From positions 1 to 64,000 of IMG/VR virus record IMGVR_UViG_3300042289_000986: a stretch of 64,000 nt of DNA; one strand, given 5' to 3'. The stretch is from a virus. The notes beneath the pieces were generated by a model. The model saw only the letters and a list, made by a program, of their open reading frames with translations. It did no database searches and was not told the origin of the DNA. Position 1 is the stretch's first letter, and every line of letters starts with the position of its first letter. Below, one piece after another: positions 1 through 16,415 of this stretch. A program made the translations under genes and the position numbers.

Positions 1-143
1 CAGCAAGTAGTGATTGGAACACATCTTTCAACAGAAGTACAATCTTGGCAGCAGCAAGTAGTGATTGGAACACATCTTTCAACAGAAGTACAATCTTGGC
101 AGCAGCAAGTAGTGATTGGAACACATCTTTCAACAGAAGTACA
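1..143 (+). repeat. 51-bp tandem repeat inside tail fibre gene
   Basis: Two perfect 51-bp copies (1-51 and 52-102) and a third identical for about 41 bp (103-143) encode a 17-residue repeat. The array touches the window edge, so more copies probably lie upstream. Perfect identity at DNA level suggests recent expansion or ongoing copy-number change. Confidence 0.95.
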
Positions 144-1106
144 TTTTTAACAACAGCAAGTGGCAACTTTTTATTACAAGGGGGTAATACATTTAACGGA
201 GATGTATCTCTTGGTACAACAAATTCAAACAGTTTAATATTTCAAACAAATAATTTACAAAGAGCTATTATAACTAGTTCGGGCAATTTTGGGATCGGTA
301 AATCCAACCCTTCGACAATTCTTGATGTCAATGGCACGGTTACTGCCGTGGGATTTAGCGGCCCTCTGACGGGTAACGTTACAGGAAATTTGACAGGCAC
401 AGCCAGTGACGTAGCTGACAATGCAATAACCAATCTAAAACTTGCAGACAATTCAGTAACCAGTTCAAAAATTCTCAATGGTACAATTGTCAATGCCGAT
501 ATCAACGATTCCGCAGCTATTGCTGGAACGAAGATTACACCGAGTTTTGGTTCACAAGATGTAACTACAAGCGGATCGCTACGCGCATCATCCTCAGTTG
601 ATAATAATGACTTTATCAGAATACGAATGAATAGTGCAGATAATAGCTTCGGTATTATCGAAGCTATGTGGGACAATAATCCGGTTTTACCAGCAAATGT
701 TTGCATAAATCCAAATGGGGGCAACATAGGAATTGCCACTAACAATCCTGTTGCTACTTTAGATATTAATGGATCGATTGGAGAAAGTAAAACAAACATA
801 TTAATTATATCAAACACTCTAACACTTCCTTTAAATACAGCAACCTTTTTTACTGTATCTTTAAATAATAATATTACAACAATGACATTTGTCTCTCCAC
901 CTGCTAATCCCAGAGTATATTCATTTGTGTTACAATTTACAGCCGATGGAACACCAAGAACTGTTGTATGGCCAGTGACAGTGAAATGGACTGGAGGTAT
1001 AGCACCAACATTAACTTCTACAAATGGTAAAGTAGATACTTTTACATTTGTAACTCATGATGGTGGGACTAATTACTTCGGATTTATAAGCGGTCAAAAC
1101 TCATAA
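3..1106 (+). CDS. Tail fibre-like protein, 5' end outside window
   Basis: The reading frame is open to the left edge, so the true start lies upstream and only the C-terminal part (about 367 residues) is seen. It begins with 17-residue tandem repeats (AAASSDWNTSFNRST core), then a fibre-type stretch with a GIG..NPS..LDVNG motif twice (GIGKSNPSTILDVNG and a similar copy near residue 245), a GPLTGNVTGNLTGTA beta-repeat and an Asn/Thr-rich C-terminus. LDVNG-type motifs are typical of phage tail fibres and of proteins with trimeric beta-helical shafts. The next gene starts 3 bases downstream and is a tail assembly chaperone type, which supports a fibre role. Exact receptor or tip domain is not recognisable. 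Confidence 0.8.
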   Translation, partial: ASSDWNTSFNRSTILAAASSDWNTSFNRSTILAAASSDWNTSFNRSTFLTTASGNFLLQGGNTFNGDVSLGTTNSNSLIFQTNNLQRAIITSSGNFGIGKSNPSTILDVNGTVTAVGFSGPLTGNVTGNLTGTASDVADNAITNLKLADNSVTSSKILNGTIVNADINDSAAIAGTKITPSFGSQDVTTSGSLRASSSVDNNDFIRIRMNSADNSFGIIEAMWDNNPVLPANVCINPNGGNIGIATNNPVATLDINGSIGESKTNILIISNTLTLPLNTATFFTVSLNNNITTMTFVSPPANPRVYSFVLQFTADGTPRTVVWPVTVKWTGGIAPTLTSTNGKVDTFTFVTHDGGTNYFGFISGQNS

Positions 1107-1109
1107 AAT

Positions 1110-1574
1110 ATGAAATTATATTGTTACACAGAAGATGGAGAAACAGCAACTGGAGCACAACCGCTTCCGGTAAATTGGCAAAATGTTTCTAATTTTGATT
1201 TACTGGATGACCAAGATTTAAAACAATATGGGTGGTTGCCATATGTACAAGTTTCTGAAAACAAAGAAGTTTTTGTCAGTTCAACGAGAGAAATCTTGGA
1301 AGACAAAGTTGTAGAGACAGTTATTACTAGAGATAAAACACCTGAAGAAATACAAGAACAAGAACAATTCAATTTACAAAATAGATGGAATGAAATCCGC
1401 ACACAAAGAAATAATTTATTAAAAGAATCTGATATATATGTTTTAGTTGACAGGTGGAATAGTATGTCTGTAGAACAACAACAAAGTTGGTCTGAATATA
1501 GACAAGCTTTGAGAAATTTGCCTCAAAGTCATACTAATCCACAAGAAATTATTTTTCCAATTAAGCCAAATTAA
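1110..1574 (+). CDS. Tail fibre assembly chaperone-like protein
   Basis: 154 residues. The N-terminal half carries a short beta-rich region; the C-terminal half has the R..RN.LL..SD motif followed by a W..YRQALR.LP motif (about residues 125-137), the hallmark of phage tail fibre assembly chaperones and related DUF4376-like proteins. Such proteins normally sit directly after the fibre they help to fold, as here (3-base gap to the fibre, 2-base gap to the RCC1-like gene). No Shine-Dalgarno is visible before the ATG. Confidence 0.75.
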   Translation: MKLYCYTEDGETATGAQPLPVNWQNVSNFDLLDDQDLKQYGWLPYVQVSENKEVFVSSTREILEDKVVETVITRDKTPEEIQEQEQFNLQNRWNEIRTQRNNLLKESDIYVLVDRWNSMSVEQQQSWSEYRQALRNLPQSHTNPQEIIFPIKPN

Positions 1575-1576
1575 AT

Positions 1577-4500
1577 ATGGGATTTGTTGCAAGAAAAACT
1601 TTATTAGGCAGGGCATCTACTACACCTAGAATCAATGGTTTTCTTTATGCATGGGGAAATAATAGTTCTGGTCAAATAGGGGCACCTTTACCTGAAGCAT
1701 TAAATGTTCCAGCTGAGGCTTCATGGACTGCTGTTAGTTGTGGTTCCCACACAGTAGCAATTCGTTCTGATGGTCTTTTATTTACTTGGGGAGGTAATAG
1801 TCATGGTCAATTAGGAGATGGTACTAGAGTAAATAAATCATCTCCAGTACAAATAGGAACTAGCACTTGGACTGCTGTTAGTCTTGCGAGTAAACACACA
1901 TTAGCAATACGTTCTGATGGTAGTTTATTTACTTGGGGACGGAACAATTATGGTCAACTAGGTGACGGCACTACTGTAGATAAATCCTCTCCAGTGCAGA
2001 TAGGATCTAGTTCTTGGACTGCTGTTAGTGGTGGTCGTTATAACACAGCAGCCATACGCACTGGTGGTAGTTTATTTATGTGGGGGCTTGGAAATAACGG
2101 TCAATTAGGAGATGGTACTACAGTATCCAAATCTTCTCCGGTACAGATAGGATCTAGTTCTTGGACTGCTGTTAGTTGTGGTAATAACATCATAGCAGCA
2201 ATACGTTTTGGTGGTAGTCTATTTACTTGGGGGGGTTCCGGTGAGGGTGCATTAGGAAACGGTACTACTTTTTCTAGTTCATCTCCGGTACAGATAGGAT
2301 ATAGTACTTGGACTGCTGTTAGTTGTGGATCGTATCATATGGCAGCAATACGTACAGGCGGCAATTTATTTACTTGGGGATGGAACTATTTTGGTCAATT
2401 GGGAGATGGCACTAGAGTAAATAAATCTTCTCCAGTGCAGATAGGGTCTAGTAATTGGACTGCTGTTAGTGGTGGTCATCGACATACAGCAGCAATACGT
2501 TCTGATGGTAGTCTATTTACTTGGGGAGAAAATGGTGGTAAGCTAGGAGATGGTACTTCTGTAAGTAAATCATCTCCAGTGCAAATAGGAACTAGCAGTT
2601 GGACTGCTGTTAGTAGTGGCCTCAATGAAACACTTGCAATACAAACAACAGGGGCCTTACTTGGTTGGGGATGGAACGGTATAGGTGTATTAGGAGATGG
2701 TACTACAGTATCCAAATCTTCTCCAGTAGCAGTAGCTCAAATTCCTTTAAATTGGACTGCTATTAGTGCTGGTTTCAACCATGCAGCAGCAATACGTTCT
2801 GATGGTCGTTTATTTACTTGGGGACGTAATAGTTTGGGTCAACTAGGTGACGGCACTACTGTAGATAAATCCTCTCCAGTACAGATAGGATCTAGTACTT
2901 GGACAGCTGTTGATTGTAAATCTTATCAAGTGGGAGCTATACGTTCTGATGGTCGTTTATTTATGTGGGGGCGTGGAAATTACGGTGCATTGGGTGATGG
3001 TACTTATGCAAATAAATCATCTCCAGTACAAATAGGAACTAGCACTTGGACTGCTGTTAGTTGTGGTGGATCTCACACAGCAGCAATACGTTCTGATGGT
3101 CGTTTATTTACTTGGGGACGAGGTGCTAATGGTCAACTAGGTGACGGCACTACTTTAAATAAACCATCTCCAGTACAGATAGGATCTAGTTCTTGGACTG
3201 CTGTTAGTTGTAGTATTAACCACACAGTAGCCATACGTTCTGGCGGTAGTTTGTTTACCTGGGGGCGTAATAATTACGGTCAACTAGGTGACGGCACTAC
3301 TGTAAACAAATCCTCTCCAGTACAGATAGGAACTAGTTCGTGGACTGCTGTTGGTTGTGGAAGTATTCACACATTAGCAATACGTTCTGATGGTCGTTTA
3401 TTTACTTGGGGACGAGGTGCTAATGGTCAACTAGGTGACGGCACTACTGTAGATAAATCCTCTCCAGTACAGATAGGATCTAGTTCTTGGACTGCTGTTA
3501 GAGGTGGATTCGAACACACAGCAGCCATACGCACTGGTGGTAGTTTATTTACTTGGGGACGAAACGCTCAGGGTCAACTAGGGGATGGTACTACTGTAAA
3601 CAAATCATCTCCAGTACAAATAGGATCTAGTTCATGGACAGCTGTTAGTTGTGGTAGTTACCACACAGCAGCAATACGTTCTGGTGGTAGTTTATTTACT
3701 TGGGGGCGTAATAATTACGGTCAACTAGGTGATGGTACTAAAGTGAATAAGCTATCTCCAACCTCTATTAATATAATTCAGGGTATTCCAGTACAAATAG
3801 GATCTAGTTCTTGGACTGCTGTTAGTTGTGGTGGATCTCACACAGCAGCAATACGTTCTGATGGTCGTTTATTTACTTGGGGAAGTAACATTTATGGTCA
3901 ACTAGGTAATAATTCTACTGTAAATGAATCATCTCCAGTACAGATAGGATCTAGTTCATGGACAGCTGTTAGTTGTGGTTCTAACCACACATTAGCTATC
4001 CGCTCTGGTGGTAGTTTATTTACCTGGGGGAGTAACAATATTGGTCAACTAGGTGATGGCACTACTGTAAACAAATCCTCTCCAGTACAGATAGGAACTA
4101 GTTCGTGGACTGCTGTTAGTGGTGGTGGTAGTCACACAGCAGCTATACGTTCTGATGGTTTTTTATTCACTTGGGGATGGAACAGTCTTGGTCAATTAGG
4201 AAATGGTACTACGGTCTCTAGTTCATCTCCGGTACAGATAGGATCTAGTTCATGGACAGCTGTTGAATGTGGATTCGAACACACAGCAGCAATACGTTCT
4301 GGTGGTAGTTTATTTACTTGGGGACAAAACAGTCTTGGTCAATTAGGAAATGGTACTACTTTTTCTAGTTCATCTCCGGTACAGATAGGATCTAGTACTT
4401 GGACAGCTGTTAGTTGTGGTTCTAACCACACATTAGCAATACGTTCTGGTGGTAGTTTATTTGCTTGGGGGGTTAACAGTTTGGGTCAACTAGGTGATGG

Positions 4501-4744
4501 TAGTACTGTAGGTAAATCATCTCCAGTACAGATAGGATCTAGTACTTGGACTGCTGTTAGAGGTGGAGGACAACACACAGCAGCAATACGTTCTGGTGGT
4601 AGTTTATTCACTTGGGGATGGAACTATTTTGGTCAACTAGGGGATGGTACTAGAGTAAACAAATCCTCTCCAGTACAGATAGGAACTAGTTCGTGGACTG
4701 CTGTTAGTGGTGGTGGTAGTCACACAGCAGCTATACTCAACTAA
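1577..4744 (+). CDS. Giant RCC1-repeat beta-propeller virion protein (21 blades)
   Basis: 1055 residues made almost wholly of about 50-residue RCC1-type repeats: LFTWG..N..GQLGDGT, SSPVQIG, SWTAVSCG, HTAAIRSDG. I count 21 WG blades. Blades 1, 8 and 15 each carry an irregular or longer loop (APLPEALNVPAEA, AVAQIPLN, TSINIIQGI), a spacing of exactly seven. The last strand (HTAAILN) could close against the first blade, which lacks it. This fits three tandem seven-bladed propellers. RCC1 folds are protein or ligand-binding platforms; in a phage, next to a fibre and its chaperone, a receptor-binding or fibre-tip role is the natural inference. Repeats are very similar at DNA level, so recombination between them is likely. 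A cellular RCC1 function is not implied. Confidence 0.85.
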   Translation: MGFVARKTLLGRASTTPRINGFLYAWGNNSSGQIGAPLPEALNVPAEASWTAVSCGSHTVAIRSDGLLFTWGGNSHGQLGDGTRVNKSSPVQIGTSTWTAVSLASKHTLAIRSDGSLFTWGRNNYGQLGDGTTVDKSSPVQIGSSSWTAVSGGRYNTAAIRTGGSLFMWGLGNNGQLGDGTTVSKSSPVQIGSSSWTAVSCGNNIIAAIRFGGSLFTWGGSGEGALGNGTTFSSSSPVQIGYSTWTAVSCGSYHMAAIRTGGNLFTWGWNYFGQLGDGTRVNKSSPVQIGSSNWTAVSGGHRHTAAIRSDGSLFTWGENGGKLGDGTSVSKSSPVQIGTSSWTAVSSGLNETLAIQTTGALLGWGWNGIGVLGDGTTVSKSSPVAVAQIPLNWTAISAGFNHAAAIRSDGRLFTWGRNSLGQLGDGTTVDKSSPVQIGSSTWTAVDCKSYQVGAIRSDGRLFMWGRGNYGALGDGTYANKSSPVQIGTSTWTAVSCGGSHTAAIRSDGRLFTWGRGANGQLGDGTTLNKPSPVQIGSSSWTAVSCSINHTVAIRSGGSLFTWGRNNYGQLGDGTTVNKSSPVQIGTSSWTAVGCGSIHTLAIRSDGRLFTWGRGANGQLGDGTTVDKSSPVQIGSSSWTAVRGGFEHTAAIRTGGSLFTWGRNAQGQLGDGTTVNKSSPVQIGSSSWTAVSCGSYHTAAIRSGGSLFTWGRNNYGQLGDGTKVNKLSPTSINIIQGIPVQIGSSSWTAVSCGGSHTAAIRSDGRLFTWGSNIYGQLGNNSTVNESSPVQIGSSSWTAVSCGSNHTLAIRSGGSLFTWGSNNIGQLGDGTTVNKSSPVQIGTSSWTAVSGGGSHTAAIRSDGFLFTWGWNSLGQLGNGTTVSSSSPVQIGSSSWTAVECGFEHTAAIRSGGSLFTWGQNSLGQLGNGTTFSSSSPVQIGSSTWTAVSCGSNHTLAIRSGGSLFAWGVNSLGQLGDGSTVGKSSPVQIGSSTWTAVRGGGQHTAAIRSGGSLFTWGWNYFGQLGDGTRVNKSSPVQIGTSSWTAVSGGGSHTAAILN

Positions 4745-4799
4745 ATTATTTAATATTATTTTTTCTTGATTTAAAAGTAAAATATACTAATATAAGTAT

Positions 4800-5873
4800 A
4801 TGCATCTTATTGATCAGCAGTTAAATTTAATGGTTCGAGGCCGATTTGACGAAGCATGGAAAATAAGCGAAAAATTGGAACAATTAGATCCTGAAGATTT
4901 AAGACACAAATTCAATAGAGGTTGGTTTTTAATTAATCAAGGAAAGTTTCAAGAAGGCTTTCAAAGCTTAGAAGCAGGTAGATTTTTAAAAGTCTACGGA
5001 GACGGATATCCACCGACCACTCAACCTTTATGGAACCAACAAAATTTAAAAAACAAAACAATTATTATTAATCTGGAAGGAGGATTGGGGGATCAAATAA
5101 TACATGCAAGGTTTGCTAAAGATGTTAAACAAAGAGGAGGTAAATGTATATTGTGTTGTGATGCAAGATTACATTCCATATTATCTAGAATAGAAGGTGT
5201 AGAAGGATGTATACAACTAAAAGATATACCATCAACAAAACATCATTATTGGCTTCCAGGTTTTAGTTGTGCATGGGTTTTTGGGCACACCTTTGAAACA
5301 CTACCAAATGATCCATATATACAACCAAATCCGTTAAGTGTTGAACAATGGAAGAATTTAATAAATTCAAAAAAAATTAAAGTTGGTATCAGATGGTCAG
5401 GTAATACAAAATTTGAACATCAACAGTTTAGAATATTTCCACCAGAAAATTTAATTAATTTTTACAAATATAAAGACATACAATTCTATAGTTTGCAAAG
5501 AGATACAGACACAAGAGAATTACCAGAAGATATTGTTGATCTGCAATATTTGCTTATATCTATGGAAGATACGGCTGCTGCAATAGCTAATCTCGATTTG
5601 GTTATAACATCATGTACTAGTATTGCCCACCTTGCATCAGCTATGGGTAAACCGACATGGATTATTGTACCAATACTACCATATCATATTTGGGCTTATG
5701 GGGATGAAACAAGTCCTTGGTATCAAGATACAACAAGAATTTATCGACAACAAAAATTCAGCAATTGGGATAGAACATTTGTTAAACTAGAAAAAGATTT
5801 AGTTAAAAAATTTAATCTAACAACGACAAACAAAAAAGTTAAAAGATTATTACAAAACGAAAAAAATTCTTAA
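4800..5873 (+). CDS. TPR plus GT-B (heptosyltransferase-like) glycosyltransferase
   Basis: 357 residues. The N-terminal 60 residues resemble a tetratricopeptide repeat (FDEAW..SEKLEQLDPEDLRHKFNRGW). The rest matches the glycosyltransferase family 9-like fold: IIINLEGGLGDQIIHARF near residue 83 (GGLGD donor-domain motif), IKVGIRWSGN near 195, and the C-terminal DLVITSCTSIAHLASAMGKP motif followed by a Pro- and Trp-rich segment. Known relatives transfer sugars to glycans or proteins. It heads a cluster of three modifying enzymes inserted in the tail gene block, so decoration of virion fibres or of the host surface is the likely job. Acceptor and sugar are unknown. Confidence 0.8.
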   Translation: MHLIDQQLNLMVRGRFDEAWKISEKLEQLDPEDLRHKFNRGWFLINQGKFQEGFQSLEAGRFLKVYGDGYPPTTQPLWNQQNLKNKTIIINLEGGLGDQIIHARFAKDVKQRGGKCILCCDARLHSILSRIEGVEGCIQLKDIPSTKHHYWLPGFSCAWVFGHTFETLPNDPYIQPNPLSVEQWKNLINSKKIKVGIRWSGNTKFEHQQFRIFPPENLINFYKYKDIQFYSLQRDTDTRELPEDIVDLQYLLISMEDTAAAIANLDLVITSCTSIAHLASAMGKPTWIIVPILPYHIWAYGDETSPWYQDTTRIYRQQKFSNWDRTFVKLEKDLVKKFNLTTTNKKVKRLLQNEKNS

Positions 5874-5899
5874 TAGACTGAATACAAAAAAATAAAAAC

Positions 5900-6496
5900 A
5901 TGAAAAAGAAATTTAATAGACTAAACATGGGATGTGGGTTTAAAAAACTCAAAGGTTACTGGAATGTAGATGTATGTGAAAAATGTGAACCTGATGAAGT
6001 GTTTGACTTTGAAGAACTTAAATGGCCTTGGGAAGATAATAGTTTTGAGAGAATTCATGCTAACAATTGTTTAGAACACCTTGGTCAAACCCCTAAAAGT
6101 TTTCTCAATGTTATAAAAGAAATGTACAGAATTAGCAAAGATGGCTGTACATGGGATATAAATGTCCCACACCATCGTTGCGATAATTATTGGAACGACT
6201 TTACCCATGTAAGAGTCATAACCCCTGTTACATTTGCACTTTTCGATCAAGAAAAAAATACAAAATCAATTAAGCAAAATCTTAGCGATAGTGTTTTCGG
6301 TTTAACTTACGATATAGATTTAGAAGTTAAAGATGTTCAATTCCACCTGACTCATCTTTTTAATAATAGAGAAACTAACAATAACACTCATCCATCAGGT
6401 TATCGCCAATTAGATGTTGATTTAAACACTATGGCGAATGTAGCTGAATCAGTTACAATAATTGTTGAAGTACATAAACCGGGCCGAAAAAAATAA
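5900..6496 (+). CDS. Class I SAM-dependent methyltransferase
   Basis: 198 residues. Motif I is LNMGCGFKKLKGYWNVDV (residues 8-25), with Gly-rich SAM loop and the acidic residue after strand 2; FERIHANNCLEHLG (about 50-63) is the usual post-motif acidic/EHL segment. This type often acts on small molecules or sugars rather than DNA: no (D/N/S)PP(Y/F) motif is present. It follows the glycosyltransferase by 26 bases and precedes the sulfotransferase, which suggests the three act on one glycan-like product. Confidence 0.8.
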   Translation: MKKKFNRLNMGCGFKKLKGYWNVDVCEKCEPDEVFDFEELKWPWEDNSFERIHANNCLEHLGQTPKSFLNVIKEMYRISKDGCTWDINVPHHRCDNYWNDFTHVRVITPVTFALFDQEKNTKSIKQNLSDSVFGLTYDIDLEVKDVQFHLTHLFNNRETNNNTHPSGYRQLDVDLNTMANVAESVTIIVEVHKPGRKK

Positions 6497-6536
6497 AGTT
6501 GATTTTTTTTTATTTTAGGTTAAATTATATACACAT

Positions 6537-7325
6537 ATGAAAACTTTACATTTTGTAGCAGGATTACCCAGAAGCGGTTCTACTTTTATTATTAATCTTT
6601 TAAAGCAAAATCCGAAATTGGATGGAGCAGCAGTTAGTTCATTGTGTTCTATTTTGTATCAAGCCAATATTAACTGGGATAAACTAGAAGCAAATAGAGA
6701 ATATCCTAATCAAGAAGCAAAAATCAACACCCTGAAAGGAATTTTAGAAGGTTATCATAAAGGATCTAACAAAGATATTATTTTTGATAAAGACAGAATG
6801 TGGGTATCAAAAATATCTCTTCTTGAAGAACTTTTACAAAGAGAAGTTAAAATTTTATGCCCAGTGAGAAATCCTGCTGAAATTCTTTCTTCCTTTGAAA
6901 GAATATACAGGAACAATCCTTTAACCCCTACTGCACCGGAACAAGAAGGAAGACAAACTATAGCATCAAGAGCTTTATATTATTCAGGACCAGAAGGTGT
7001 ATTAGGCATAAGCCACGCTTTAATTAAAGATGCTATTGTTTCTGGCTATTTGGATAGATTGTTGTTTGTTGATTATAACAAATTCTGCAATAATCCAAAA
7101 GCACAAATGAATCGCATTTACGACTTTTTTGAGTTGCCATCATTCAAGCACAATTTTCAAAAAATTGAACAAACAGAGCAGTATAATGATATTGCTACAG
7201 GTCATGTAAATTTACATAAGATTAAACCAGCAGTTGAAAAAACAACCGTAAACTGTGTGGAATATTTAGGACTTGATTTATACGAGCAGTATAATAGAGA
7301 GACATTTTGGGATGCTTGGATTTAA
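6537..7325 (+). CDS. PAPS-dependent sulfotransferase family protein
   Basis: 262 residues. The N-terminus FVAGLPRSGSTFIINLLKQNP has the RSGST phosphosulfate-binding loop; VRNPAEILSSFERIYR (about 110-125) has the Arg and Ser expected at the 3'-phosphate-binding site. The C-terminal YNKFCNNPKAQMNRIYDFFEL is also typical. Family members move sulfate from PAPS to carbohydrates or peptides. A possible weak promoter, TTGATT (6499-6504), 16 bp, TAAATT (6521-6526), lies 10 bases before the ATG. Third enzyme of the surface-modification trio. Confidence 0.8.
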   Translation: MKTLHFVAGLPRSGSTFIINLLKQNPKLDGAAVSSLCSILYQANINWDKLEANREYPNQEAKINTLKGILEGYHKGSNKDIIFDKDRMWVSKISLLEELLQREVKILCPVRNPAEILSSFERIYRNNPLTPTAPEQEGRQTIASRALYYSGPEGVLGISHALIKDAIVSGYLDRLLFVDYNKFCNNPKAQMNRIYDFFELPSFKHNFQKIEQTEQYNDIATGHVNLHKIKPAVEKTTVNCVEYLGLDLYEQYNRETFWDAWI

Positions 7326-7430
7326 TAACGAAAGAATCAAAAATATATATTATCGTTTAAGATAAATTTTGTGTTATTGTGTTAGAATAAATTTTATATT
7401 TAATACTATGTATAAGAAATAAGTAATAAT

Positions 7431-8243
7431 GTGAATTCTCAAACAGTATTAATGTCATTGGCTAGTGCTTCTAGTGGCATACAATTCATTCCTATTGTTA
7501 TTGGTGATGAATTTGATAACATAATAATATTTTCGCCAACTGATAATTCGCCAGTTCCTCTTACTGCCGTAACTCTTGGACAAACATTTTTCAGTCAAAC
7601 AAATATTACAACGTATGCTCCATTTACTTTGACCTTAGATCCATCTGCATTGGATGTTGATAATAAAATTTATAAAATTGAATATAATTTTGGTGATGGT
7701 AATATTATTACTCAAAATTATTATTATTCAAACACAGGTGTTGATACAATGAATTTGGCTTATTCGGCGGAACCAGGCGATCCTCGAAATTACATCAAAC
7801 AAAATACGTTCTTTTTATCTGATACAAATACAAAATACATAACCGTTGAAGTTAAAATATATTCACTAGGATTTAGTGATTTTAAACAATACTTTGTTAA
7901 TCTTGTATTAGATCCCCCAAATTTAGATGGTAATATTTCTGAAAATAGATATTTTGAAAATCTTCATTTAATTTCTACAAGAATGTTTGGACCTGATGAT
8001 AAGATATTTTATGTATTTGAAAGTGATGTTCCAAATTATCTTTTACCTGCATTGGTTAAGTGGGAAAATAAAGAAGAAAACACCAACATTAATATACAAA
8101 GTAATCAATTTCGACCATATAAATTATTACAACCTTTTGAAAAAGAAGATGTTACAAGTGTTGAAACCAAAGTACCAATTTCCTTTGTTTCTCCACAAAC
8201 GCCAAACACAAATATTGCTGACATAGGAATGGATGACATATGA
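7431..8243 (+). CDS. PKD/Ig-like virion structural protein
   Basis: 270 residues, GTG start (an upstream ATG runs straight into TGA). The centre has YKIEYNFGDGNIITQNYYY, the FGDG turn being typical of PKD-type beta-sandwiches found on phage surfaces. The rest is beta-rich without recognised motifs. Its end overlaps the next gene by 4 bases (ATGA), so the two are co-translated. Position within the tail block suggests a virion protein. Confidence 0.6.
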   Translation: MNSQTVLMSLASASSGIQFIPIVIGDEFDNIIIFSPTDNSPVPLTAVTLGQTFFSQTNITTYAPFTLTLDPSALDVDNKIYKIEYNFGDGNIITQNYYYSNTGVDTMNLAYSAEPGDPRNYIKQNTFFLSDTNTKYITVEVKIYSLGFSDFKQYFVNLVLDPPNLDGNISENRYFENLHLISTRMFGPDDKIFYVFESDVPNYLLPALVKWENKEENTNINIQSNQFRPYKLLQPFEKEDVTSVETKVPISFVSPQTPNTNIADIGMDDI

Positions 8244-8968
8244 GTTTATATAATCAAGATCAAACAACCGGAAAACTTTGGTTAAGAAACGTTATTGGAA
8301 ATATTGATAGTGCGAATAACGTTTTGTCGGCCATATATGAAAAATATTCAGAAGAAACTCAATTTTATAATGAATTAATTAATAATGAAATTTATAGATT
8401 TGATGTTTTTTATGATTGTGTTTTTATTGAAACAGAAAGTGGGTGTTTTTTTGAAAAAATAAATGTTGATGAAAATTTTTCGCTTCTTCCATATACTAAA
8501 TTTTTCTTTTATAACCCAAGAAAAACAACACCCGTTGATTATTGGTTTGATGAAGTTCAAAATAAAGTGTTTTTTATTGAAATTCAATATGAATCTATTC
8601 TCAATCAAAATTTTAAATTTATATTATATTTTTATGAATTTGATTTAATAACAGGAATTACCAATTTAAAATTAAAAAATAGAATCAATTTAAAATTTAA
8701 AAATTCTGAAATTTGGTCAGATTTTACACCAGAAATTGAAAAACCAAAATTAGCATATAATATTGACACCAAAAATTATAATGTTTCCTTTGTGTTTCGC
8801 GGAAAAGAAAGAGAATTTGCTCTTTTAAGTATTATGCTTCGAAAAGAAGCAGATTTTATAGTATCAAAAATTGATGGAATTGCGCCATTTATAACATTAG
8901 ATCCAGAAAATTCGACATTTTATTCAATTTTAGAGAATGATCCAGAAGCAACAAGCTTTGCAGCATAA
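8240..8968 (+). CDS. Hypothetical beta-rich tail-region protein
   Basis: 242 residues; no recognised family. Rich in Phe, Tyr, Asn and Lys with alternating beta-type pattern. It overlaps the upstream PKD-like gene by 4 bases and precedes the 1173-residue LamG-type protein, so it probably belongs to the same virion structure. Cys content is low. Function not assignable. Confidence 0.6.
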   Translation: MSLYNQDQTTGKLWLRNVIGNIDSANNVLSAIYEKYSEETQFYNELINNEIYRFDVFYDCVFIETESGCFFEKINVDENFSLLPYTKFFFYNPRKTTPVDYWFDEVQNKVFFIEIQYESILNQNFKFILYFYEFDLITGITNLKLKNRINLKFKNSEIWSDFTPEIEKPKLAYNIDTKNYNVSFVFRGKEREFALLSIMLRKEADFIVSKIDGIAPFITLDPENSTFYSILENDPEATSFAA

Positions 8969-9024
8969 ACTATTTTCACCCAAACTTAATCTTATTTCAA
9001 GATTAAGAAATAAATATTATAAAG

Positions 9025-12000
9025 ATGTCAAATTCTATCAATTTTTATAATGTTCCTCAGATGCATTGGTATCCTGTTGAGCTTAATTTATTAAGCCAAG
9101 AATATAACATCAAGACATATCCATTGATATTTAATAATGGTATAAAATTTCAACTTCAAGAGTGTTTAAATGATTGCAAAGACGTTTCTTTAAACAAAAA
9201 AACAGGTTTATTCTTAACCGATTTAACTAAAATAAATAATTTTTTAGATGACAATGTTGATTTTGCAGAAAAAGAACCATTAAAAACAATCTTAACACCT
9301 TTAGCAAATTTTGATTCAAAAATATTAATTAATACAACTTTATCAAGTTCAACTTTTGGTGTTGAACCTTGGAATAGATTATGTGTTTCCGAAAAAATTA
9401 ATTTTACCGTTGAAGATAATTTTATTTTAAATTTTTACAATGATGGTGGAGATGGATATGTAACAATACAATCTACAACAGATGATAAATACCTTACATG
9501 GCTTGGTGGTAGCGGTCAAGGAAACATTATAATTTATCCCAAAATTTTCCCATCAATTTCTAATCAAAAATTTCGTTATTTGCTTGGAAAAGATAATATC
9601 ATACTCTTTCAATATAAAGAAGAGTTTTCAGAAATTGTTTTGAATGATTCTTTAATTTTGGTGAATCAAGTTTTGAATTCTACTGCTTTTGGTTTAAGTT
9701 CATTACCAGCATTTTTTCAATCAAACATTCCACCTTCGGCAATAATTAAATTAATTTCTTATAAAAAATTAGAACCCAATAAAAAACATCTTAAGAATAG
9801 TTTTCTTGCAAAATATAAAATAGATCCTCTTACTAAAAAAAATCAATTGGACATAGACCCTGAATATGCGAACATGCCATATAGTCAAAATTATTTGGGA
9901 ATTTTTCCTTATGAATATCCGTTAATATCTAATGATAAAGCATTATATCCGTTACATATACATGGACTAAAAAACTATCAAACGCCTGAGTATAACTATG
10001 CATTTTATGCCAAAAATTCAGAAATATTAGAAAATGAGTTGGGAGTAAGAAGAGACTACCATAAAATATTTTCAGGCACAAATCAAACAAACGGATTACC
10101 TCAAATATATTTAGGATATCATTCTGATACCTCTAAAATTGAATTTGAATCAGATAAAGATGTTCCATTTTATTTTGCCCCAACATCAGTTAGAAAAAAA
10201 ATACAAGAATCAAGTTTAATTGAAGATGGTGCTTTGGCGGGTGAAATACCTTTTGTTTCCGATAGAATATTTTTCAAACTAGATGACTATTCACAAACAA
10301 ACGTTGGTCAACCACAGCCACCATCTATAAAAAATATTAATAAAGATATAACCAATGGAACATGGTTGTGTTCTTGGCTTCATTTAAGTTCTAATGGTGA
10401 ATATGTTTGGTTAGATCGTTTTTATAATACTGCATATTATACAGTAAACGAAGCCTTAACATCTAAGGTTTATTCATATAACGAAAAAATAGATCCAACT
10501 GCTCCTTTTGTTATTGATGTTCCTTCAACAATGTATCTAGAACCCGCTGGTTTGTATCGATACTTTCATGTTGGAAAAGAAACCAGAAAATCTTACCTAG
10601 AATATGTTGATGAAATCAACAATGATCCACATTTACCATTAGGTTCCAAATTTTTACACGTAGAAAAATGGAATTCAGATCCATTAACAGATGAATCAAA
10701 ATATAAAAACAATGGTATTTTATATTATAATAAACCAGAAAATTTAAAAAAAGATTATATTCAACTTGACGGAACAAACCATGCCGTATTTCCAGCAAAA
10801 AGTATTTTATTGGAACAAACAAAATTAACAGCATCTTTGTGGATAAATGTTGAAGATTGGAATGCTGTTGAAGGTAATCAAATATTTGGAAATTATTATG
10901 ACAGTGGTTTTGGTTTATTAAACGATTCTTCTTTAACAACTCCAATTATTACTTTAGTAAATGGTAACAACAACAAATATTACAATATAAATTATAGATT
11001 TGGTAAAATTAATGAAGTGGCAATTACTAGACCGGAAATTTTACAAAACGTAGATCCCACAATTTATGTACCCCCAACCAAAGGAAACAACCAAAATCGT
11101 TTTATTTTGAGATTACCAGATTATAGTTTTTGGGTTGTTGATGTGATAAACTATACGGCTACCAAATTTAGTATAGATGACCAAAAATTAGCTGAAATAT
11201 TTTATGGAAATTATATTAATAATGTTTCTCAAATAGAGATTGATAGTCAAGAAAATATATATTTGTTTGATAATATATTAAAAAGATATGTCAAATACAA
11301 CACTTATGGTGTTTATGTTAATGATGTAGAAGTTGAACCAAACATCAACAGAATTGAAATTGATTTAAATGACAACGTTATTCCAATTTATGGAACATTT
11401 TCAATAATAGATAATAAAAATACGGTTTGGCAAATTTTAGGAGGAAATCTTTATAAAGGAACAAACCCACAAGATCTTTCAACAAGTCAAATTTTTGCAA
11501 ACATTGGAAATGTACAATCTTTAACATGTGATGCGGATGGCTATCTTTGGATAGCGCACGAACAAGATACAATAACAAAAATTAATACTAACGAAGAAAA
11601 AATAGAGTTTTCTATTAGAATAGGAAAATACTCATCAACACCAGTTGACCCATGTTTACGAGCAAATGGAATTGTGCGTCATATTCATTTTATAAGAGTT
11701 CCTACTGATGCAAATACAAATATTTGTTATAAAAATAAAAATATAGAAGATAGATTGGTTTTGGTGGATACCTTTGAAAGAACGTTGTATCAATTGGATA
11801 CAAATGGTAATTTGTTAACAAAACTAGATATTACTGCATTGTTTGAAAAAAATGATCCGATAATATATTGTGAAGGAGACATTACGGGATATCAAAACAT
11901 TCGCAAGTTTAAAACAATCAATAAAAAGTTTGCATGGAAAATTAAAATTGCTGATATTAATAGGTATGAGCCACAACTATATAGTTTAGATTATGAACTA

Positions 12001-12546
12001 AGTGGATTAAACGAAGGATGGCATCATTTTGTTTTAACATTTGATGGCACAGAAGGTTATATTAAAACTTATTTAGATTCAAATTTGATAAAAGAAGTTT
12101 ATTTTGAGCCTAAAAAATATCAAATAAGTTATGATTTTAGAACTTCTTTATTATTGGGAATTCAAACTATAAAAAATACTAATTTAAACGATATAATTCA
12201 GATTAATGACGGTTATAAATTCAGAGGACAGATTGCAGATTTAAGACTTTATGGTAAGTCTTTAACAAATGGAATTATTGAACAAATTTATTATTCTTCT
12301 CAATATGGATCGAATGATAAAACTATGATTTGGAATATGTTAATAGGAAAAAGATCTTATGTCGAAGATGTTAAAAATTGGTTTAAAATGCAAATGCCAG
12401 GTAGCAAAAGTAAATACTACAACATCAATATACATAATTTAAACGTTTCAAATGAAGTAAAAACAATAATAGAAGAAGCTATTAAAACTAACTTATCAAA
12501 AATTGCCCCCGCAAATGCTTCACTATATAAGATAAATTGGACATAA
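9025..12546 (+). CDS. Large virion protein with LamG/concanavalin-like domains
   Basis: 1173 residues. About residues 560-640 and 985-1100 look like LamG/jelly-roll domains: KLTASLWINVEDW, then GLNEGWHHFVLTFDGTEGYIKTYLD and RGQIADLRLYGKSLTNGIIEQIY, the classic sequence of such lectin-like sandwiches. Between them is a long repeat-poor region with propeller-like phrases (IDSQENIYLFD, CDADGYLWIAHE, LVDTFERTLYQLDTNG) that could be an NHL/Vgb-type propeller (inference). The C-terminus is Lys/Asn-rich helix. It begins after an AT-rich ATAAATATT box 11 bases upstream, a possible late promoter. Likely glycan-binding fibre or baseplate-peripheral protein. Confidence 0.7.
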   Translation: MSNSINFYNVPQMHWYPVELNLLSQEYNIKTYPLIFNNGIKFQLQECLNDCKDVSLNKKTGLFLTDLTKINNFLDDNVDFAEKEPLKTILTPLANFDSKILINTTLSSSTFGVEPWNRLCVSEKINFTVEDNFILNFYNDGGDGYVTIQSTTDDKYLTWLGGSGQGNIIIYPKIFPSISNQKFRYLLGKDNIILFQYKEEFSEIVLNDSLILVNQVLNSTAFGLSSLPAFFQSNIPPSAIIKLISYKKLEPNKKHLKNSFLAKYKIDPLTKKNQLDIDPEYANMPYSQNYLGIFPYEYPLISNDKALYPLHIHGLKNYQTPEYNYAFYAKNSEILENELGVRRDYHKIFSGTNQTNGLPQIYLGYHSDTSKIEFESDKDVPFYFAPTSVRKKIQESSLIEDGALAGEIPFVSDRIFFKLDDYSQTNVGQPQPPSIKNINKDITNGTWLCSWLHLSSNGEYVWLDRFYNTAYYTVNEALTSKVYSYNEKIDPTAPFVIDVPSTMYLEPAGLYRYFHVGKETRKSYLEYVDEINNDPHLPLGSKFLHVEKWNSDPLTDESKYKNNGILYYNKPENLKKDYIQLDGTNHAVFPAKSILLEQTKLTASLWINVEDWNAVEGNQIFGNYYDSGFGLLNDSSLTTPIITLVNGNNNKYYNINYRFGKINEVAITRPEILQNVDPTIYVPPTKGNNQNRFILRLPDYSFWVVDVINYTATKFSIDDQKLAEIFYGNYINNVSQIEIDSQENIYLFDNILKRYVKYNTYGVYVNDVEVEPNINRIEIDLNDNVIPIYGTFSIIDNKNTVWQILGGNLYKGTNPQDLSTSQIFANIGNVQSLTCDADGYLWIAHEQDTITKINTNEEKIEFSIRIGKYSSTPVDPCLRANGIVRHIHFIRVPTDANTNICYKNKNIEDRLVLVDTFERTLYQLDTNGNLLTKLDITALFEKNDPIIYCEGDITGYQNIRKFKTINKKFAWKIKIADINRYEPQLYSLDYELSGLNEGWHHFVLTFDGTEGYIKTYLDSNLIKEVYFEPKKYQISYDFRTSLLLGIQTIKNTNLNDIIQINDGYKFRGQIADLRLYGKSLTNGIIEQIYYSSQYGSNDKTMIWNMLIGKRSYVEDVKNWFKMQMPGSKSKYYNINIHNLNVSNEVKTIIEEAIKTNLSKIAPANASLYKINWT

Positions 12547-12547
12547 T

Positions 12548-13420
12548 ATGGATAATACTTTTGAAAAAACAGACCAAGGCTGCAACAACATCTTTTTAAT
12601 TGATGAAAGACTTTGTTTGTCAGATTCTATTGGTTTGATTAACAGTAATTTTTTAAAATTATCCGCAGCAGCCAACCAACTCATTCCTTATGCAAATCAA
12701 TTTAATACACTTTATACAAACTTTGCTGCAAATAGTGCCAATTGGAATTTAGGTGCAAGCAACACAGCTAAAGGAAAAAACAAATATAATTCATATTATT
12801 CAACAATTAATAGTTTAAGTGCATCTTGGAATAAACCATTTTCAGTAATCTATCCATATATTCATTCATTAAATGATTGGAACTCAAATACAAATCAGTA
12901 CCAAAATATTGTTAAAAATTGGTTAACATTAAATCATAGACCTTTAGAATTTGTTAATGATCAAATGGTTTATGTAAACGTTAATTTATACAAAATTGAT
13001 ACGTTTAATTATTCTTTTTCAAACAGCTTTTACGAATCTTGCCAAGTTCAAGCACCATCCTCAAGAGTGTGTTGTTCTGGCGCAGGAGGACAAATAGCTG
13101 GTGGAAATGCGGGGTGGCTTAGTAGGTTAATAAGAATAGTTGCAGGAACTACTAACAATTCATGTTCTTTAGTAATACCACATGCGGGTTGTAACATAAA
13201 TTTTAATTGGAAGGGCAGAGGAAAAAGGTGCGTGAATCCTTGGGCAGAATGTGAAAGAAGAATCGTGAATAATTGTGCCACTGGAAACTGTACAAGTTAT
13301 AACAAAAAAACATTATCAGTTTCTGGAACTACTCCAAATTATACTGATAGATATACTGCTAAATGTATTTTGTTAAAATTTAAAAAATTAAACAATAATG
13401 AATGGAGTCTAATACCATGA
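12548..13420 (+). CDS. Cys-rich virion-region protein, paralogue A
   Basis: 290 residues. The first half shares with the next gene the pattern SASWNKPFSVIYPYIHSL....Q..VKNWL. The second half is a Cys-rich insert (CCSG, NSCSLVIPHAGCN, RCVNPWAECERRIVNNCATGNC) with more than a dozen Cys. Such Cys density is unusual for a phage protein made in a reducing cytoplasm; metal binding (Zn or Fe-S) is more likely than disulfides. Ends in an ATGA overlap with the next gene. Confidence 0.6.
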   Translation: MDNTFEKTDQGCNNIFLIDERLCLSDSIGLINSNFLKLSAAANQLIPYANQFNTLYTNFAANSANWNLGASNTAKGKNKYNSYYSTINSLSASWNKPFSVIYPYIHSLNDWNSNTNQYQNIVKNWLTLNHRPLEFVNDQMVYVNVNLYKIDTFNYSFSNSFYESCQVQAPSSRVCCSGAGGQIAGGNAGWLSRLIRIVAGTTNNSCSLVIPHAGCNINFNWKGRGKRCVNPWAECERRIVNNCATGNCTSYNKKTLSVSGTTPNYTDRYTAKCILLKFKKLNNNEWSLIP

Positions 13421-14196
13421 ACAGTCTTTATATGTTAACAACATCAAGTTCGATAGGAAACACTCTATCTGCTTTAAATCAAAATTCTTATGAATTAGAC
13501 AAATTAGTATCATCAATTCAATTAAGCGCACAAAAATTTTGGATACCGATGGCTCAATATTATGAGGAGAGAAAAACTTTCTTAAAAGAAGCAACAAAAG
13601 AAACTGCTTTAAATTTTCCAAGATGGGAAACTGCATCATCAACATTTGAAGCAAACAGTGCTAAATGGATAAAACCAATAACAGTTTTTTATCCATATAC
13701 TGAGGGAGAAAATATTGCTTTATATCAACCAAATGTTATTCAAACTAGATTTAAAAATTGGTTGGATGTGTATTATCCAATTTTTAGAAAATCATCACCA
13801 TTACCACATTACGTCGAAGGTCAAAGAATTATTGTGTATAGTTTTAATTTAGAAAAAAGTCAAGCAATTAACTCCACATTCACTTTAAACGATTCTACCA
13901 CATGTACTTCAGCAGCAGTTAACGTGTGTGCTTATTGTTCCCAATGTTTTACAAGCTACGTGCCTTGTCAACAAGGAACTTTCTGGTGTGATGGAAGAGG
14001 GTGTTCCTATTGTCATAGGTGCGGTTCGCTAAGTTGTAATTTTTCAAAAACAAACACAACAAGTAAAACATCATATGTAAGAGCAAATATGGTTGTAAGA
14101 TTAGCAAATTCTCACGAAAAATCAGAAATGAATGCATTTGTTTTTATAGTCAGAGATTGTCAATGGGTTTTTGAAAAAACATTAACACGATCATAA
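13417..14196 (+). CDS. Cys-rich virion-region protein, paralogue B
   Basis: Start chosen at 13417, where ATG overlaps the upstream stop (ATGA); an in-frame ATG at 13402 is also possible. About 259 residues. Shares AKWIKPITVFYPYTEG...Q..FKNWLDVYYP with the upstream paralogue. Its Cys-rich block (CAYCSQCFTSYVPCQQG, WCDGRGCSYCHRCGSLSC) has five CxxC or CxC-type pairs, so it looks like a metal-binding insert in a common scaffold. Function unknown. Confidence 0.6.
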   Translation: MNSLYMLTTSSSIGNTLSALNQNSYELDKLVSSIQLSAQKFWIPMAQYYEERKTFLKEATKETALNFPRWETASSTFEANSAKWIKPITVFYPYTEGENIALYQPNVIQTRFKNWLDVYYPIFRKSSPLPHYVEGQRIIVYSFNLEKSQAINSTFTLNDSTTCTSAAVNVCAYCSQCFTSYVPCQQGTFWCDGRGCSYCHRCGSLSCNFSKTNTTSKTSYVRANMVVRLANSHEKSEMNAFVFIVRDCQWVFEKTLTRS

Positions 14197-14197
14197 T

Positions 14198-15430
14198 ATG
14201 AATGAAAGAAATATAACATTTAACATAGAACCTCATGAATGTGTTGGAGACTCATTGGGAAAACACAATTTTAATTTTCTTGCATTAGATAGTTTAGTCT
14301 GTAACCTTTCTTCTTTGTTTTTTTCAACAAGCAGAGGAAACACTCCTCTTTTGTTAACATTAAGAGATTTATCTGCAAATCAAAAATCATTTAATGATAA
14401 TTTGAATCAAATGACAAACACATTTCGTTTTGACCGAGCATACACAGGATTAAATTTATTGAGTTCTTATTGGGAAAGAAACGAGACAACAATTTCATAT
14501 CCAAATGATAGAACGGCAGGAAACTATTTTGTTTATAATACTAACGAAACTTTTATGCCATATATGACTGCAACTTGTTTGCGTCACATAAATTTAAATT
14601 ATCCTGCCTCTTCATATAAATTAAACGATTTTTTTAATGTTGTTGTTCCAGTTTATAGTAACTTAGGTAGCGATATAATATCCTACATATATACCGATTT
14701 AAATGGAAGCTCTGTAAGTACACCATCAATGCCTACCTTTTCTTTAGTAAAAGACGTTGGGGTTGGTTATGATTATCGACAAATTGATGCTTATTATTCG
14801 AAAGAAGATAATAATTTTTGGACTAATGTAATAGTTACATTTCAAAATAAAAATCGAAGAGAATGGTCATATTTTGGATTTAATAATGAGGTTGTAAAAA
14901 ATACTTTAAAAGTTAATGGATCAATAGTTCCACCTATTTCTGGAGTTGATCTTAATCCATCAGGAGCAGCAACAATCGAAGTGCCTTATTATAATCCAGA
15001 AACTGGAATAGCTACTAACCTAAAGTTTGTGGAACCAAACCCACCAATAGGACAAAGAACAACCTTAACAAAAGGAGATGCAAGAAGTATAGTGTTTAAT
15101 CAATATTATAACAGAGATTTATATTTTAGTACAGAAGCCATTAGTCAGGGTGGTTCTTTAACATTAACTTTCTTATCACAAGATGGAAAACTTTTCACTT
15201 ACGAATATACAGAAAAAAATAGCGGTATGGCTAGAGGTACTTATCAATCAAAACAAATAGTTCTTGGTTGGAATTTAAATCAAGTTTATGCGAAAGAAGA
15301 TGGTGTAACAGTAAAAACTTGGGTAATGCCAATACCTAAACATGTGGCTGTTAACTTTATCTACAGAGAATATAGAGGAATTGGACCAAAAATCGATGCA
15401 TTTTTGAGAAAAACTGTTCCTATAAAATAA
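14198..15430 (+). CDS. Hypothetical virion-region protein, related to the Cys-rich pair
   Basis: 410 residues. The first 150 residues have the same layout as the two preceding genes (LSANQKSFNDNLNQM, SSYWERNETTISYPND), suggesting a three-gene family, but the Cys-rich block is missing and a beta-rich C-terminal domain (about 180-400) replaces it. Starts one base after the upstream stop without SD. Probably part of the same virion substructure; function unknown. Confidence 0.55.
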   Translation: MNERNITFNIEPHECVGDSLGKHNFNFLALDSLVCNLSSLFFSTSRGNTPLLLTLRDLSANQKSFNDNLNQMTNTFRFDRAYTGLNLLSSYWERNETTISYPNDRTAGNYFVYNTNETFMPYMTATCLRHINLNYPASSYKLNDFFNVVVPVYSNLGSDIISYIYTDLNGSSVSTPSMPTFSLVKDVGVGYDYRQIDAYYSKEDNNFWTNVIVTFQNKNRREWSYFGFNNEVVKNTLKVNGSIVPPISGVDLNPSGAATIEVPYYNPETGIATNLKFVEPNPPIGQRTTLTKGDARSIVFNQYYNRDLYFSTEAISQGGSLTLTFLSQDGKLFTYEYTEKNSGMARGTYQSKQIVLGWNLNQVYAKEDGVTVKTWVMPIPKHVAVNFIYREYRGIGPKIDAFLRKTVPIK

Positions 15431-15465
15431 GTTGATTATATAAAATTCAAAAATAAATAGAGAAA

Positions 15466-15945
15466 ATGAAAAATCCTTTTTTAAAATGTAGATATGCTCG
15501 CGGTCTAGGAGATATAATAGGGTGTACACTACACAGTAAGTTTTTAAGTTGGTTGCCTTTATTATTAACAGGACAAAAAGAACAGTGTCAAGCTTGTTCA
15601 CAAAGATCACAAGCACTAAATGTTCTTTTCCCTATTCCAATTTGGCGTTTATTTTTTAAAAACCAAAAAGAATTAAATTTATCTTTAAAAAAAGATTTTG
15701 AAGATTTGGGATATGAAGTGACATATAATCCTGAAAACAATGCTTTATCAGCAAATATTCAAAAGGAAAATAGAATAGAAAATAATCAGTATTTAAATCA
15801 TAATGAAGTTCCAGATGAACATAAAAAAGTTGATTTTTCAAAAACTATAAAAAATAACAATGGACAAGAATATAAATTAGTAAATTCAAATAATACAGAA
15901 TTTGAAAATTATTTTATAAAAACAGAAATATATAAATTATCATGA
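15466..15945 (+). CDS. Hypothetical protein with N-terminal Cys cluster
   Basis: 159 residues. The N-terminal 55 residues contain Cys 8, 21, 40 and 43 (QCQACSQRSQAL), a possible metal site; the remainder is Lys/Asn-rich and mostly helical. Preceded by AAATAAATAG, a late-promoter-like box. Overlaps the next gene by 4 bases. No family recognised. Confidence 0.5.
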   Translation: MKNPFLKCRYARGLGDIIGCTLHSKFLSWLPLLLTGQKEQCQACSQRSQALNVLFPIPIWRLFFKNQKELNLSLKKDFEDLGYEVTYNPENNALSANIQKENRIENNQYLNHNEVPDEHKKVDFSKTIKNNNGQEYKLVNSNNTEFENYFIKTEIYKLS

Positions 15946-16415
15946 ACATTACCATCGATACCAACCAATCAACACAAATTCAAATTGTTAATAGTTTAGA
16001 TACTACTAGAGAATTTGGATTATTTTTAAATAAAATTGTAAGCAGCATAAAGATGGCACATTGGTATACTCAAGATTATAATATTCATAAAATTTTAGGA
16101 AATTTATATGATAATTTAAATAATCTTTTTGACAAAATGCAAGAAGAAATTATTGGAACTTCAAAAACTTCGAATGTTTTTTTTCCTAAATTAAATTTAA
16201 TTGTTGATAACATTGAAAGTTTGGAAAATTATCAAGATGATCAAAAAATTATAAACGTGTTCGATCAAACAAAAACTGTTTTAAAAAATTTGTTATGCTC
16301 TTTAGAATTTATACAGTATGTTGATACTGTTCAGTCAGGTATAAATAACACAAAAGAAGAAATTATTTCAGAGCTTAATAAGACTGAATATCTTTTATCT
16401 ATGATAAAATTATAA
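15942..16415 (+). CDS. Dps/ferritin-like four-helix protein
   Basis: 157 residues. The segment IKMAHWYTQDYNIHKILGN, followed by LYDNLNNLFDKMQEEIIG (about residues 28-65), has the HW....(Y/F)..H....LYD.L....D...EE pattern of Dps/ferritin-like helices, where the His, Asp and Glu bind iron. The rest is predicted helical. Several phages carry ferritin-like proteins of this size. Iron binding or DNA protection in the virion would be the family-based guess. It ends tail-to-tail with the large minus-strand adhesin gene (6-base overlap). Confidence 0.5.
   Translation: MNITIDTNQSTQIQIVNSLDTTREFGLFLNKIVSSIKMAHWYTQDYNIHKILGNLYDNLNNLFDKMQEEIIGTSKTSNVFFPKLNLIVDNIESLENYQDDQKIINVFDQTKTVLKNLLCSLEFIQYVDTVQSGINNTKEEIISELNKTEYLLSMIKL

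Follow-up and report, generated by a model that had tools for sequence, protein, structure and literature searches.

Proteins of the RCC1 type whose structures have been solved are seven-bladed propellers. In a survey of highly repetitive propellers (Pereira and Lupas, 2022, PMC9218822) the RCC1/BLIP-II group was the third largest and had a few viral members; the 15 near-identical blades of one WD40 protein were predicted to form rings of 7+8, and an array of 47 blades resisted parsing. Among phages, RCC1 proteins of phrog_4219 have been found by mass spectrometry in virions of the E. coli phage W70 (PMC11370258), and one RCC1 protein in virions of phage GAP32 (PMC5259590). Here we analyse an RCC1 protein of 21 blades, encoded at positions 1577-4744 of a 64,000-nucleotide stretch of DNA (the window; positions 1 to 64,000 of virus record IMGVR_UViG_3300042289_000986), together with its relatives. 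We think it likely that phage RCC1 arrays are recursively nested propellers, in which whole propellers are placed between strands C and D of the blades of others, nested as many as five deep and numbering at most 14 (98 blades), and that this order is written as a last-in-first-out code of short and long blades with seven blades per ring. In the open-licence papers we found no description of such nesting brackets in RCC1 arrays.

An array of 21 RCC1 blades

All 21 blades are matched by the Pfam RCC1 repeat (PF00415) above the curated cut-off of 21.7 bits and the RCC1-like domain model (PF25390) gives 1193.6 bits, which places the protein in the RCC1 repeat family; outside this gene the whole 211,587-base virus record contains no Pfam RCC1 match. 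The blade period is 49 residues. Strands of a structural blade would run in the order A (SWTAVSAG), B (HTAAIRSDG), C (xLFTWG) and D (SSPVQIG), and the chain of the window protein starts at strand C and stops at strand B. The distance from the tryptophan of 'WG' to that of 'SWTAV' (Trp-Trp) is typically 27 residues, with 24 in blade 1, 29 in blade 8 and 37 in blade 15. Both the number of blades and these three irregular ones had been recognised in an earlier reading of the letters (the original prediction), which overlooked a fourth, minor irregularity in blade 7, shorter by one residue. The chance that three marked blades among 21 stand exactly seven apart is 7/1330 (0.5%), a figure for a pattern chosen post hoc, and since the pattern in the window was picked after the fact, the independent test of the seven-blade spacing lies in the homologues.

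Blade counts and blade order in relatives

Scans of viral contigs gave ~145 loci with relatives (cited below by locus number), many of them repeats of one contig. Blades were counted by cyclic profile alignment, with each blade forced to retain its C and A strands, and the counter matched hand counts except where an N-terminal domain was taken as the first blade. Among complete homologous open reading frames (ORFs), 22 of 30 close clusters contain only multiples of seven by the automatic rule that all members agree, far above the 4.3 expected (p ~5e-13). The figure becomes 26 of 30 when the trimming of first blades is corrected and one representative per cluster is taken; strictly it is 24 of 30, because in two clusters with differing members it is the representative that is a multiple of seven. 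Two of the four clusters left over, L020 and L060, have 14 and 28 blades if a first blade without WG is retained. The counts among the clusters are 14, 21, 28, 35, 42, 49 and 63, and other phages have 7. At the far end, a single complete ORF of 5577 residues (L171:6114) holds 98 RCC1 blades (14 x 7), and two overlapping ORFs in different frames (L017:2239-7980 and 7878-17465), which look like one gene with a frameshift, jointly hold 98 by hand count. Relatives that were found later and not used in tuning agree: of 11 complete ORFs, 10 have a blade count divisible by seven, namely seven single propellers and three ORFs with 14 or 21 blades. The comparison of repeat number among related phages, which the original prediction had suggested as a check, thus came out in favour of its reading of 21 as 3 x 7, with relatives mostly at multiples of seven from 7 to 98. 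That the window protein consists of three seven-bladed propellers is well supported, mainly through these counts.

How are the rings arranged along the chain? Blades were classed as short (Trp-Trp of 22 residues or fewer) or long (37 or more). The strand-D motif is absent from 66 of 73 short blades, occurs once in 550 of 632 blades of normal length and is present two or more times in 64 of 71 long ones. Each long blade was paired with the last unpaired short blade, as brackets are paired (last-in-first-out), and 63 of the 67 resulting pairs stand at a distance that is a multiple of seven, compared with a mean of 3.5 and a maximum of 11 in 2000 shuffles of blade types within proteins. The thresholds hardly affect this result (49-63 multiples of seven among 54-70 pairs over the range from 20/36 to 24/40), and when only the 17 distinct configurations are counted 52 of 56 pairs conform. 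For those pairs on which the two orders of pairing differ, last-in-first-out gives 43 multiples of seven out of 45 and first-in-first-out only one out of 45. In proteins with balanced brackets, subtraction of the enclosed blades leaves exactly seven blades to 74 of 79 implied propellers; of the other five, three have fourteen, which makes two rings in series, and two have six. L056, with 42 blades, has short blades at 1, 5, 9, 13 and 17 and long ones at 24, 27, 30, 33 and 36, which gives six rings of seven, five deep. L088 (711 residues, 14 blades) has a single bracket, 1/8, and L050 and L103 are further bracketed relatives. The most frequent insertion site (15/21) follows blade four of the receiving ring.

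A second type of odd blade, with a Trp-Trp distance of 25 residues and either an altered strand D (e.g. EPTAIDG) or a shortened loop (GRTINQSSPVQIG), is present in L010, L015 and L020. By eye it pairs last-in-first-out at distances of 7, 14 and 21 (7/14, 4/18 and 1/22 in L010; 2/9 in L020), and in L062 the order is reversed; an automatic test with this type mixed among short and long blades did not confirm the pairing. The bracket parse deteriorated (54/77) when a second, looser odd-blade class (E/R) was included, and for this reason only short and long blades were used.

Proposed topology and the alternatives to it

What would such brackets mean for the fold? At a short blade, which has strand C without D, the chain would exit and make one or more entire propellers; at a long blade, one of the two D strands would finish the last blade of the inner propeller and the other would complete the interrupted blade. 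In the window protein, blade 1, with its lone strand C and no D, would be the opening bracket and blade 15, with its extra strand D, the closing one, 14 blades further on, while blade 8 would be the joint of two enclosed propellers, X and Y, at its altered D-to-A linker (Table 1). The outer propeller, O, would then take strands A and B of its last blade from the C-terminus, strand C from the N-terminus (blade 1) and strand D from blade 15. Relatives whose chain ends were inspected begin with strand C and finish with strand B, so that both ends would close the outermost ring. Blades 1 and 15 conform to the short/long rule of the relatives, and blades 1, 8 and 15 would stand seven apart because the rings have seven blades. 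We infer both the strand pairing across the brackets and the closure of the rings. In our opinion, the gene, from a T4-like cyanophage, probably codes for a protein made up entirely of propellers, with three closed seven-bladed rings that do not simply follow one another.

Structure prediction bears on this only in part. The full-length AlphaFold model (predicted local distance difference test, pLDDT, 59.8) has confident strands from residue 50, a renewed rise in confidence near residues 391 and 800 and troughs around blades 7-8 and 14-16; its alignment mixed nested and tandem relatives, and a poor model resulted. The model of residues 1-440, a nine-blade fragment (pLDDT 65.0), also has its first strand at residue 50, with very low confidence for residues 1-46. 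Both models leave these residues outside the first ring, which is what one would predict if strand C of blade 1 had its place in another part of the fold. Foldseek matched the full-length model to the HERC2 RCC1-like domains (template modelling score, TM, 0.81, root-mean-square deviation 3.3) and the fragment to UVR8 (TM 0.78), and a sequence search likewise returned UVR8, HERC and RCC1 as relatives of solved structure. The check by structure prediction that had been proposed earlier thus confirms the RCC1 fold and, at a pLDDT of 60-65, leaves ring size and topology unconfirmed.

Several observations count against nesting in rings of seven. One and the same set served to find the bracket rules and to test them for the first time; the held-out set has a single clear bracketed protein, L153, in which the pair 5/12 came out correctly and the pair 1/15 was spoilt by one miscall, and in relatives under ~90 bits per blade the calls turn to noise. 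In the window itself, blades 1 (24) and 15 (37) stand at the margin of the length classes. The two AlphaFold models are weak and show no strands paired across a bracket, and the model of residues 1-440 is undecided between rings of seven and eight, because it took all eight A-B-C-D units offered, at similar confidence. There are also exceptions to the counts, namely L016b (20), L043 (20), L041 (34), L054 (46), L173 (10) and S-SRM01 gp335 (6); multiples of seven are also missed by several ORFs that are very long or divergent. Frameshifts may account for some of these, and collapsed or misassembled repeats are a likely cause for some, because the counts of 34 and 46 have near twins with 35 and 42: L041:1285 (34 blades) is nearly identical to L071:5215 (35) with one long blade different, and L054:1227 (46) to L056:2000 (42) with four blades different. 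These differences are either real changes or assembly errors.

Could the three propellers instead follow each other in plain linear tandem (blades 1-7, 8-14 and 15-21), each closed on itself, with the odd blades as ordinary linkers? The odd positions 1, 8 and 15, and the odd blades 1 and 8 that L042 and L043 have as well, would suit such an arrangement, and so would the bacterial relatives, which have 7 or 14 blades in simple tandem or propellers spaced by ~165 residues and in which no brackets were seen. However, blade 1 begins at C without D and the chain stops at A-B, so that the ends must complete each other; residues 1-46 lie outside the first ring in both models, and the odd blades of relatives pair last-in-first-out and not serially. 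We regard the linear tandem as quite improbable. An open superhelix, or other ring sizes (e.g. six, eight or nine blades) with no fixed unit of seven, could appeal to the eight units taken up by the 440-residue model and to the 7+8 prediction for the 15-blade WD40 protein (PMC9218822), but the multiples of seven over homologues with 7 to 98 blades, and the exactly seven blades owned by nearly all implied propellers, leave this hardly credible.

Another question is how the three propellers arose. The original prediction took the spacing of the irregular blades as a sign that three propellers had been built by repeating one, from near-identical repeats. The latter was overstated, as the mean pairwise identity of blades in the window protein is 69% for amino acids and 76% for nucleotides, and the best pair has 90% for nucleotides. 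When similarity was tested at every offset, blades seven apart were no more alike than others, either in amino acids (0.694 vs 0.687 overall, p=0.33) or in nucleotides (0.750 vs 0.756, p=0.73), and no excess was found at offset 14 (p=0.09 and p=0.20, respectively). Thus, although the odd blades stand exactly seven apart, as expected from whole duplication of one seven-bladed unit, we consider that origin very unlikely. Similarity between blades is greatest for the pairs 12/17, 17/21 and 11/13, and the most similar DNA pairs are 2, 4, 5 or 10 blades apart; amplification or exchange of single blades would fit this pattern better than whole-propeller copying, with the proviso that homogenisation could hide an older duplication. 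For the irregular blades themselves, a role as junctions between propellers and as points of strand insertion is a better explanation than whole-propeller copying.

The locus, its likely function and known propellers

The record belongs to a T4-like cyanophage: genes for rIIA and rIIB are present, and a virion structural protein is 67% identical to Synechococcus phage counterparts over 68% of its length. The photosystem family PF00124, looked for in the record as a host marker, was not found, nor were Rfam families in positions 1-9000 of the window. As the original prediction had stated, the array adjoins a tail fibre and its chaperone; the order tail fibre, chaperone, array is conserved between the window and relatives and marks the distal tail-fibre locus. 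A series of genes of matching size (~160 residues, array, ~350, ~265) recurs in many relatives, and the match to the tail-fibre chaperone was confirmed in L012, L014, L060 and L065. In L023, L024, L129 and L021 several separate single-propeller RCC1 genes lie near each other, not one fused array. The tail-fibre gene (window:1-161; L009:3673-7530) carries a 51-base tandem repeat (17 residues, SSDWNTSFNRSTILAAA) where the contig starts, and this repeat is the probable reason why the assembly broke off. In L009 a 136-residue protein encoded upstream of the tail fibre (3249-3659) matches the C-terminal domain of a K1 capsule lyase (PF24146).

Table 1. Features of the array gene and its neighbours in the window; propellers X, Y and O are putative.
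Feature	Positions	Strand	Description
Tail-fibre gene, 3' part	3..1106	+	Truncated by contig start; entire gene (1285 residues) in L009:3673-7530
Tail-fibre assembly chaperone (Phage_tail_APC)	1110..1574	+	154 residues
RCC1-array gene	1577..4744	+	1055 residues, 21 blades; no further recognisable domain
N-terminal leader	1577..1636	+	MGFVARKTLLGRASTTPRIN, 20 residues, ahead of the first strand
Blade 1	1637..1771	+	Residues 21-65; starts at strand C (LYAWG), no strand-D motif (SSPVQIG), Trp-Trp 24
Propeller X (putative)	1721..2749	+	Residues 49-391; would be seven contiguous A-B-C-D blades; first confident strand at residue 50 in both models
Blade 8	2651..2803	+	Residues 359-409; D-to-A linker longer by 2 residues, SSPVAVAQIPLNWTAI replacing SSPVQIGSSSWTAV
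Propeller Y (putative)	2750..3781	+	Residues 392 to ~735; would be seven contiguous blades; pLDDT rises again at ~391 (full-length model)
Blade 15	3686..3862	+	Residues 704-762; 10 residues longer, two strand-D-like segments (LSPTSINII..IPVQIG), Trp-Trp 37
Outer propeller O (putative)	3782..4741	+	Residues ~736-1055; ends at strands A and B; from strand bookkeeping
Protein with weak TPR match	4800..5873	+	357 residues; gene of ~350 residues after the array in most relatives
Methyltransferase-like protein	5900..6496	+	198 residues
Sulfotransferase	6537..7325	+	262 residues; most relatives have a gene of ~265 residues next, with the Pfam match confirmed in L014

What does the array do? Our best guess is that the window protein is a virion adhesin that attaches to the host surface and sits at, or close to, the tail-fibre tip, a view drawn from the gene order and from the mass spectrometry of homologues. 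Binding would occur via the blade face with the variable loops A-B and C-D. Both loops are on the same side of a four-stranded blade, and therefore a variable binding face is plausible. The most variable blade positions are 8, 10, 11 and 40, 41, and the ratio of nonsynonymous to synonymous polymorphism (pN/pS) is higher in the C-D loop (1.12) and the A-B loop (0.85) than elsewhere (0.37). The raised ratio in the two loops is the one observation in keeping with the idea of the original prediction that recombination among the repeats may allow a host-binding surface to change fast. The term 'virion protein' in the original prediction went beyond what is visible in the sequence and finds its support in homologues: the window protein matches phrog_4219 with E=7e-130, and the proteins of W70 and GAP32 come from virions. 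The accompanying remark that such propellers are unusual in a phage was too strong, as RCC1 matches are present in 34 phage records and virion RCC1 proteins are described in these two phages (PMC11370258, PMC5259590). The array could instead be a scaffold, or act on the host from within the cell, or belong to a surface-modification set together with the methyltransferase and the sulfotransferase, whose genes lie downstream and have counterparts of matching size in relatives; RCC1 folds are also general protein-binding platforms. We find these roles unlikely, given that the array directly follows the tail-fibre chaperone in the window and in confirmed relatives and that homologous phage RCC1 proteins are present in purified virions.

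The N-termini of other relatives carry a short MLLIEQLLAK-type leader or a domain of ~75 residues in place of the 20-residue leader. The longer domain (xTxFxxxGxDLDxLFEPIGxxxKRADVxYxVxGTDISNxYY), phrog_11610, stands ahead of the array in L103, L041, L063 and L045 and is possibly a virion attachment domain.

The division of long arrays of near-alike blades into domains is normally hard, and here it can be read from the sequence, where it predicts an unusual topology of propellers inserted within propellers. If this is true, a phage could enlarge its receptor-binding surface by whole steps of seven blades with all rings kept closed, and the arrays provide a natural set of proteins of 14 to 98 blades for the study of how such chains fold.

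How does this compare with known systems? With the RCC1/BLIP-II propellers (RCC1, UVR8, the HERC2 RCC1-like domains and BLIP-II) the window protein shares the PF00415 repeat and a blade of ~50 residues, and it would also share the seven blades per ring and, as its sequence fits, one blade common to both chain ends. Those propellers are single or separated by other sequence, whereas the window protein would have three with almost no linker and its relatives up to 14. The phage RCC1 proteins of phrog_4219/7220/16766 (W70 gp237-239, GAP32 gp1, S-SRM01 gp335/337/344, BUCT-ZZ01) are of the same family, and in Synechococcus phage S-SRM01 and in BUCT-ZZ01 the RCC1 genes likewise adjoin tail-fibre genes. 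The W70 proteins are single-propeller-sized (40-43 kDa), and the genes of S-SRM01 have one propeller each and those of BUCT-ZZ01 two, in contrast to three fused in the window. A prasinovirus paper that also matched 'RCC1' held culture-collection strain names only. The nearest known topology is that of the triple propellers DDB1 and CPSF160. In CPSF160 the last propeller is made from three discontinuous regions (PMC5760199), and the proposed propeller O, which follows from strand bookkeeping in the window and bracket statistics in relatives, would resemble such a discontinuous propeller. DDB1 and CPSF160 are, however, eukaryotic WD40 proteins, fixed at three propellers, with no recursive series and no bracket in the sequence, and they are not homologues of RCC1 at the family level. 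Finally, the highly repetitive propellers (WRAP and others) of Pereira and Lupas (2022, PMC9218822) share with the phage proteins the amplification of near-repetitive blades into long arrays; the difference is that the phage RCC1 arrays can be parsed, through their brackets and multiples of seven.

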